39,098 bases of DNA from Fidelibacterota bacterium (GTDB lineage: Bacteria; Fidelibacterota; Marinisomatia; SCGC-AAA003-L08; TS1B11), in NCBI GenBank assembly GCA_022574435.1, contig JACZSB010000001.1, forward strand, positions 1-39,098, written 5' to 3'. Every line of letters starts with the position of its first letter. Position 1 is the first letter of the stretch. This document shows, piece by piece, positions 37,495 to 39,098 of the stretch. Under the pieces are notes generated by a model that was given only the letters and a program-made list of their open reading frames with translations, was not told the origin of the DNA and searched no databases. Both the position numbers and the translations under genes were made by a program.

Positions 37495-38189
37495 CAGATG
37501 GCCAGGCTCAATTGAGCCCCTCCCGATATGAATTTGGGATGCACTATAACCCGGCCGGCCAGGTGGAAAGTTGGCACAATTTTCCAAGTTGCCGCCAGGA
37601 TCAAAGTATTCAAGCTTGCTTTTAGTTTGCCGCCCACCATTTCATCTCGAAAATCAGCATTGGGGAACATAGAATAACTTAAAACCGCTAGACCCCCACT
37701 AATGTTCCAGATTCCCATATCCAGATTGTAGATCCATTGCAGCTCGTTCCATTTAAGGATGTAGGCCGCCAAACCGTCTATCCGTCCCTGGACCAGAATA
37801 AACTCGGGGATTGCCGCGCCGATGATCAACGCTTCAGGTAGGTAGCGTAACCCGAGTCGGCGCAGCAATACTAACTGCTGCTGGAAATGACCAGACCCCA
37901 GGCCGCCCAGTAATGCCAGATTGGGAGACAACCACCACTGGAGCCCCAAGAAAGGCAATATCGCCAGGTCATACTCTTCGCCTTGAGCACGGATTACTGT
38001 CGGGAACAGGGTTGCTGAGAGCGGGCCAAACTGCGTCAATGGTAACGGAGCAGGGATGCTGGCTGCGGTGACTGTGCGGGCCAGGTCGAGAAAATCAGAC
38101 TCGGTTTGTGGTGGCTGAGCGGGTAGAGGTTTGACCAGCGCCACAACCAGGATGATCGCCCAGGCCGGCAGGGACTTAAATAAGGCCAC
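37494..38189 (-). CDS. Secreted protein of unknown function between lpxA and dxr
   Basis: About 231 residues. GTG 38189 gives a classical signal peptide (LFKSLPAWAIILVVALVKPLPAQ); a TTG at 38204 is also in frame, and both overlap the lpxA end. The mature part is rich in alternating polar and hydrophobic strands (LALLGGLGSGHFQQQL, LQWIYNLDMGIWNISGG) and ends in a strand-like GGAQLSLAI. This suggests a small outer-membrane barrel or periplasmic beta-protein. It sits where lpxB or an outer-membrane assembly gene often lies in other genomes but resembles neither. Function unknown. Confidence 0.6.
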   Translation of the reverse strand: MALFKSLPAWAIILVVALVKPLPAQPPQTESDFLDLARTVTAASIPAPLPLTQFGPLSATLFPTVIRAQGEEYDLAILPFLGLQWWLSPNLALLGGLGSGHFQQQLVLLRRLGLRYLPEALIIGAAIPEFILVQGRIDGLAAYILKWNELQWIYNLDMGIWNISGGLAVLSYSMFPNADFRDEMVGGKLKASLNTLILAATWKIVPTFHLAGRVIVHPKFISGGAQLSLAI

Positions 38190-38952
38190 GGGTGCTGTCC
38201 TCAATGAAAGCGAGAACGGTTTTGACTTCCGGGGTAGGCTCCATATCGTTTTTGATTATCTCCACGGCTTGTGGCAGATTATAAGTCGACCGGTAGATTA
38301 ATTTATAGACCTGCTTCAAGGTTTTTCTAGTTTCGGCCGTGAAACCATGCCGGCGAAGTCCCACTGAATTTATCCCTGTATAATGCAGCGGATTGCCTGA
38401 GGCCAGAATATAGGGGGGCACATCCTGGACCAACCGGTATCCACCGCCAATAAAGGTATGGGTCCCAATATGGCAGAACTGGTGCACCGGGGTTCCGGCG
38501 CCGATGGAGACGTAGTCATGAATATGTACGTAGCCGCCCAGATTGACGCTGTTGGCGACGATCACATGATCCCCGATAATGGAATCGTGCCCCACATGGA
38601 CATAGGCCATCAATAGGGTTTGGGAGCCGATGACGGTGCCCGGCTCCCCAGACTTGGTGCCCCGGCCTACCGTCACAAATTCGCGAATTGTGGTGTTATC
38701 GCCAATCACCAGCCTGGTGTCAGCGCCATCATATTTCAGGTCCTGGGGAATGCCGCCCACCACTGCACCTTGGAATATCCGGCAGTGCGAGCCGACGGTA
38801 GTGCCATAGAGTACACTGGCATGACTCATTATTACGGTGTGGTCGCCGATTTTTGTGCCGCCCTCAATCACGGCGAAGGGGCCAACCTGCACCTCCCGTC
38901 CCAAATCGGCTTGAGGATCTATGATGGCGGTAGGGTGTATTTGGGCGGGAAT
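38176..38952 (-). CDS. lpxA: UDP-N-acetylglucosamine acyltransferase LpxA, apparent ATT start
   Basis: LpxA performs the first step of lipid A synthesis. The left-handed beta-helix hexapeptides are plain (VQVGPFAVIEGGTKIG, TRLVIGDN), with the catalytic His in AYVHVGHD matching E. coli H125 and the GINSVGLRRHGF helix hallmark. Coding homology starts upstream of the first standard start codon: IHPTAIIDPQADLG is in frame before TTG 38904. No ATG, GTG or TTG exists between there and the in-frame stop inside fabZ. ATT at 38950-38952 has GGAG 7 bp upstream and yields 258 residues, close to the 262 of E. coli. A sequencing error is the alternative. Confidence 0.88.
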   Translation of the reverse strand: MPAQIHPTAIIDPQADLGREVQVGPFAVIEGGTKIGDHTVIMSHASVLYGTTVGSHCRIFQGAVVGGIPQDLKYDGADTRLVIGDNTTIREFVTVGRGTKSGEPGTVIGSQTLLMAYVHVGHDSIIGDHVIVANSVNLGGYVHIHDYVSIGAGTPVHQFCHIGTHTFIGGGYRLVQDVPPYILASGNPLHYTGINSVGLRRHGFTAETRKTLKQVYKLIYRSTYNLPQAVEIIKNDMEPTPEVKTVLAFIEDSTRGLI

Positions 38953-38954
38953 TA

Positions 38955-39098
38955 CTATTCTCCGCGCCCTACTATGGAGATCAAAAAGATACTTTCAGCT
39001 ACCAGCACACCATCAACCAAGGCTTTTCCTGAGAATCGGCAGGTGTTCATCCGCATTTTGATCAATTCGATTTCCAGTATGATCTGATCTCCAGGGGT
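38955..39098 (-). CDS. fabZ: 3' end of FabZ (or LpxC-FabZ fusion), partial
   Basis: The last 47 residues of a protein that begins beyond the window edge. The hot-dog-fold tail is recognisable: PGDQIILEIELIK, then CRFSGKALVDGVLVAES and a final IVGRGE before TAG. FabZ dehydrates beta-hydroxyacyl-ACP and supplies the lipid A precursor pool. In several FCB phyla it is fused to LpxC, which cannot be judged here. It is directly followed by lpxA, the common order. Confidence 0.85.
   Translation of the reverse strand, partial: TPGDQIILEIELIKMRMNTCRFSGKALVDGVLVAESIFLISIVGRGE

Follow-up and report, generated by a model that had tools for sequence, protein, structure and literature searches.

A predicted AUU, AUC or AUA start codon of lpxA in a class of Fidelibacterota, probably a selected weak start

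The window analyzed in this study (the whole stretch of DNA examined, 39,098 nt) comprises the entire contig C306 of a Neomarinimicrobiota MAG of 474 contigs. At its end, on the minus strand, are located the 3′ part of a gene encoding a fused LpxC-FabZ protein and, downstream of it, the gene lpxA. The features of this region, in the order of transcription and with the basis of their assignment, are listed below (AUH denotes AUU, AUC or AUA).

38955..39098, minus strand: 3′ end of lpxC-fabZ, with the contig ending inside the gene (sequence; complete fused ORF in the close relative L004)
38995..38997, minus strand: in-frame stop codon TGA, which closes the lpxA frame upstream (sequence)
38960..38963, minus strand: GGAG, putative Shine-Dalgarno core (sequence; Shine-Dalgarno pairing is enriched before the AUH starts of the class)
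38950..38952, minus strand: ATT, predicted start codon of lpxA (no other AUH codon lies at Shine-Dalgarno distance; identity of the homologous codon in relatives)
38902..38904, minus strand: TTG, the first in-frame standard start codon, rejected as the start (a protein starting here would lack residues 1-16, with IHPTAII among them)
38176..38952, minus strand: lpxA, encoding UDP-GlcNAc acyltransferase, 258 aa (TIGR01852 score and alignment to solved LpxA)

The product of lpxA (38952-38176), when read from the ATT, consists of 258 aa and begins with (M)PAQIHPTAIIDPQ.... It exceeds the curated equivalog score for UDP-GlcNAc 3-O-acyltransferase (LpxA) and is full length from the first position: the score against NCBIfam TIGR01852 is 324.5 bits (cut-off 231.05), with positions 1-253 of the 254 of the profile covered, and that against NF003657 is 338 bits (cut-off 226). 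Solved LpxA chains align to the predicted protein from residue 3-5 onward.

The lpxA frame is closed by the TGA at 38997-38995, located 15 codons before the ATT (38952-38950). From this stop to the conserved motif IHPTA it reads AAG TAT CTT TTT GAT CTC CAT AGT AGG GCG CGG AGA ATA GTA ATT CCC GCC CAA ATA CAC, and a search of this segment for in-frame ATG, GTG or TTG codons revealed none, i.e. there is no usable standard start before the conserved N-terminus. The GGAG (38963-38960) is separated from the ATT by a spacer of 7 nt, which is a proper Shine-Dalgarno distance; the junction in the lpxA frame is CGG AGA ATA GTA ATT CCC GCC CAA ATA CAC CCT ACC. Two parts of the original prediction were confirmed by this codon-by-codon inspection, namely that IHPTAII is encoded upstream of TTG 38904 without any standard start back to the in-frame stop, and that GGAG lies 7 bp upstream of the ATT.

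Initiation elsewhere, i.e. at TTG 38904, at the ATA codon of the IHP motif, or in a FabZ-LpxA product generated by frameshift or readthrough, is very improbable. TTG 38904 is the sole standard codon near the 5′ end, but it lies 16 codons downstream of the ATT, within the first part of the fold, and is not preceded by a Shine-Dalgarno sequence. Since the solved chains align from residue 3-5, a protein initiated at this TTG (residue 17) would lack the first part of the LpxA beta-helix, including residues that match the beginning of the family profile. The isoleucine codon of IHP is also an AUH codon; however, it is located 19 nt from GGAG, and the isoleucine is present in the ATG-started outgroup proteins too. 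Another AUH codon, ATA 38958-38956, was rejected as the start, being just 1 nt from GGAG. Judged from sequence, the predicted start of lpxA at ATT 38952-38950 is supported by every test available.

In the frame of fabZ, the junction reads GGG CGC GGA GAA TAG TAA TTC. The fabZ stop codon TAG (38957-38955), which ends 2 nt before the ATT, is followed directly by TAA (38954-38952). In the close relative L004 the LpxC-FabZ fusion is encoded by a complete ORF of 466 aa, which is preceded by an lpxD-like gene (gene names by sequence inspection). The gap between the fabZ stop and the lpxA start amounts to 1 nt (21 loci) or 2 nt (24 loci) in 45 of 53 loci of the class; in the outgroups the gaps are spread from -8 to 12. 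A FabZ-LpxA fusion produced by frameshifting was rejected, because gaps of 1 and 2 nt, both of them out of frame, occur equally often and no single frameshift would serve for both.

It is next to impossible that the ATT arose from an ATG by a sequencing or assembly error, or that an indel cut the frame off from a start further upstream. The window does come from a fragmented MAG, and 146 bases separate the site from the end of the contig, but the same ATT with near-identical flanks is present in contig C232, a strain variant of the same assembly, as well as in JADFMC010000050, a separate MAG belonging to the same genus, whose LpxA is 97% identical; this recurrence excludes a sequencing error. 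Moreover, AUH codons occupy this position in dozens of independent assemblies. The original prediction had proposed to check the conservation of ATT in close relatives, and had named relatives with ATG or GTG at this place, or an indel fusing the frame to an upstream start, as findings that would speak against it: the ATT is conserved in both of these copies, close relatives carry neither ATG nor GTG at the site, and no such indel was found. Each of three alternatives, namely an error in sequencing, a fusion by frameshifting and initiation at the downstream TTG, is excluded or very unlikely. The C232 copy (G000:C232:1-252, L002) is a second, slightly different 5′ end of lpxA (96% aa identity) on a short contig, and probably reflects strain variation within the MAG.

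We also surveyed 133 lpxA loci across the phylum, comprising 102 loci of the class to which the window belongs (families f1-f20) and 31 outgroup loci from other classes. Codon positions were counted before the His of the IHPTA motif, so that the ATT of the window is codon -5. Within the class, 77 of the 102 loci have only an AUH codon, 18 contain a standard start at or near the site, and 7 are ambiguous. Codon -5 is ATT in 49, ATC in 15 and ATA in 8 of the 102 loci, and ATG in none, i.e. the AUH start has been kept in the relatives. A standard start is missing from codons -8 to -1 in 62 of 79 class loci (38 genera, 17 families), as opposed to none of the 31 outgroup loci, and this lack is not due to chance. 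All of the outgroup loci have a standard start, which in 19 of the 31 is an ATG exactly at codon -5, and nearly all lpxA loci of Bacteroidota and Ignavibacteria start with ATG. Codon -5 does not encode a conserved Ile inside the protein, since the residues that separate the start from the motif are variable, and many loci have an in-frame stop a few codons further upstream. These comparisons suggest that the AUH start of lpxA is a class-wide ancestral trait, going beyond the single-genome oddity first noted.

Several loci deviate from the common pattern. In L095 (genome G191) and L105 (G169) the AUH at codon -5 has been replaced by GTG, the sole standard codon found at exactly this position in the class. 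Locus L140 (G065) contains GTC at codon -5, not the ATC of its genus neighbour G067, and has no standard codon in frame nearby; the GTC represents a still rarer start codon or else an error. At the same place, the lpxA genes of KSB1 and of an unplaced bacterium (L007 and L020) start with ATT TTG, the AUH codon adjoining a TTG. In genus g63 (family f23) an lpxA match was obtained in none of the ten genomes (G009-G018), although relatives of the same family have one; this genus may have lost lipid A synthesis.

To place lpxA among other genes, ortholog pairs (at least 50% identity) were counted between 800 kb of G186 and 1.2 Mb of G187, which are single-contig genomes of one genus within the family of the window (approximately a quarter and 40% of the two genomes, respectively). 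Among the 146 pairs, lpxA was the only gene whose conserved N-terminus began upstream of all standard starts shared by the pair. We rejected the possibility that start-codon use is relaxed throughout the lineage: 22 of the 146 pairs passed a crude filter, and inspection showed a compatible standard start a short way downstream in all of them but lpxA. The gene infC, which starts with AUU in E. coli (PMC1780047) and AUA in S. aureus (PMC13009471), begins with ATA, ATC or ATT in the class, with no standard codon upstream in frame in 25 of 30 loci. The method thus detects real AUH starts and leaves ordinary genes unflagged.

The AUH starts of lpxA are preceded by unusually strong Shine-Dalgarno sequences. 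The median energy of the duplex with the anti-Shine-Dalgarno is -6.6 kcal/mol (n=77), compared with -3.3 before the outgroup ATG starts of lpxA (n=27; Mann-Whitney p = 3.5e-6) and -3.3 before the standard starts of other G186 genes (n=114; p = 3.7e-8), both p values being optimistic owing to relatedness. The RNA structure around the start gave little signal (mean unpaired probability 0.55 in the class vs 0.49 in the outgroups). The exact 16S anti-Shine-Dalgarno pattern is present in two genomes of the class; it was not found in four others, including the fragmented assembly of the window.

In a FastTree tree of LpxA, constructed with the leader codons left out, the class forms one clade of 102 sequences with no outgroup inside. 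Parsimony on this tree yields one gain of AUH from a standard codon and nine changes back, and in most losses of AUH the new standard codon lies elsewhere than at codon -5. Within the class, codon -5 changed 15 times among ATT, ATC and ATA (including 5 changes from ATT to ATA), and never to ATG. Nine of the ten class lpxA loci with ATG are found in genomes of 1.7 Mb or less. The lack of ATG among the 15 changes, the displaced position of most losses and the concentration of ATG loci in small genomes argue for selection against AUG at this site, with a later release in some small genomes, as far as a quick tree with few events for parsimony can indicate.

The main rival to a selected weak start, which we regard as rather unlikely, is that the AUH start is real but neutral. 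Coupling to lpxC-fabZ and the strong Shine-Dalgarno would make the codon nearly irrelevant, so that a lost AUG was never restored. The gap of 1-2 nt to the fabZ stop in most class loci and the strong Shine-Dalgarno pairing are compatible with this explanation, as is the free swapping of the three AUH codons. However, free drift should also yield ATG, and none of the 102 class loci contains it at codon -5, despite the 5 changes to ATA. Furthermore, outgroups with a similar operon layout retain ATG. The lack of ATG among the 15 third-base changes speaks against neutrality through coupling, and in the tested precedents with a strong Shine-Dalgarno the codon still cut the yield to approximately 10% (PMC13009471).

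It is probable that the AUH start of lpxA is instead a conserved, selected weak start, which keeps the amount of LpxA low in relation to LpxC-FabZ, encoded on the same transcript. According to this model, lpxA would be translated from AUU, decoded as Met by the initiator tRNA, at a site held together by the strong Shine-Dalgarno and by the lpxC-fabZ ribosome terminating 2 nt upstream; AUH would have replaced AUG once in the class and then been retained. The weak start would lower the synthesis of LpxA in comparison with that of LpxC-FabZ from the same mRNA. FabZ and LpxA share the substrate (R)-3-hydroxyacyl-ACP (PMC6211225), and a low level of LpxA would limit the amount of this compound that leaves fatty-acid synthesis for lipid A. 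Since IF3 discriminates against AUU, AUC and AUA, a shortage of IF3 may increase the yield of lpxA, as it does that of infC. We infer the reduced yield of LpxA, the IF3 dependence and the metabolic purpose by analogy with such genes. The idea that the AUH start throttles lpxA gains support, at the level of sequence comparison, from two observations: the site has undergone 15 third-base changes without becoming ATG, and its Shine-Dalgarno has been strengthened. The 18 class loci with a standard start count against a selected weak start, in that the trait can be lost. It is conceivable, although doubtful, that lpxA and infC form an IF3-gated gene set, in which the ratio of IF3 to ribosomes, acting via AUH start selection, would set the balance of lipid A and phospholipids in the class.

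Bacterial genes known to have retained a start of AUU, AUC or AUA are few. The infC gene resembles lpxA of the class in that an AUH start has been kept over a wide evolutionary distance and AUG avoided, but it encodes an autoregulating translation factor, whereas lpxA encodes a lipid A enzyme and is coupled to the upstream lpxC-fabZ. The lpxA gene of E. coli, likewise located downstream of fabZ, has a GUG start; it shares the non-AUG start, but GUG is a standard start codon. In E. coli, proteolysis of LpxC by FtsH is the main determinant of the lipid A level (PMC6339880). The AUU start of E. coli pcnB limits the expression of this one gene (Binns and Masters 2002, cited in PMC1780047), and a similar limitation may apply to lpxA; pcnB differs in function, and the class-wide conservation with swaps of all three AUH codons is seen for lpxA. 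A parallel in architecture is provided by ccpN (AUA) and cvfC1 (AUU) of Staphylococcus/Bacillus, whose conserved AUH starts are also combined with an unusually strong Shine-Dalgarno. In S. aureus, such conserved AUU and AUA starts with an extended Shine-Dalgarno yield approximately 10% of AUG (ccpN up to 30%, in rich medium). The starts of ccpN and cvfC1 were demonstrated by Ribo-Ret and reporters (PMC13009471), whereas that of lpxA is predicted from comparative sequence evidence. A search of the available literature for lpxA genes starting with AUU, and for studies of start codons in Marinimicrobia, returned nothing relevant and no earlier report of this AUH start.

Annotation limited to ATG, GTG and TTG would shorten or misplace LpxA throughout the class. 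A core lipid A gene with an AUH start across dozens of genera, in which ATG has never come back at the site, offers a natural experiment in which selection for weak initiation can be studied. LpxA catalyzes the first step of lipid A (outer-membrane) synthesis, and a class-wide weak start suggests that its translation is held low on purpose. In this major uncultured lineage, the AUH start of lpxA points to a step at which outer-membrane synthesis is controlled.
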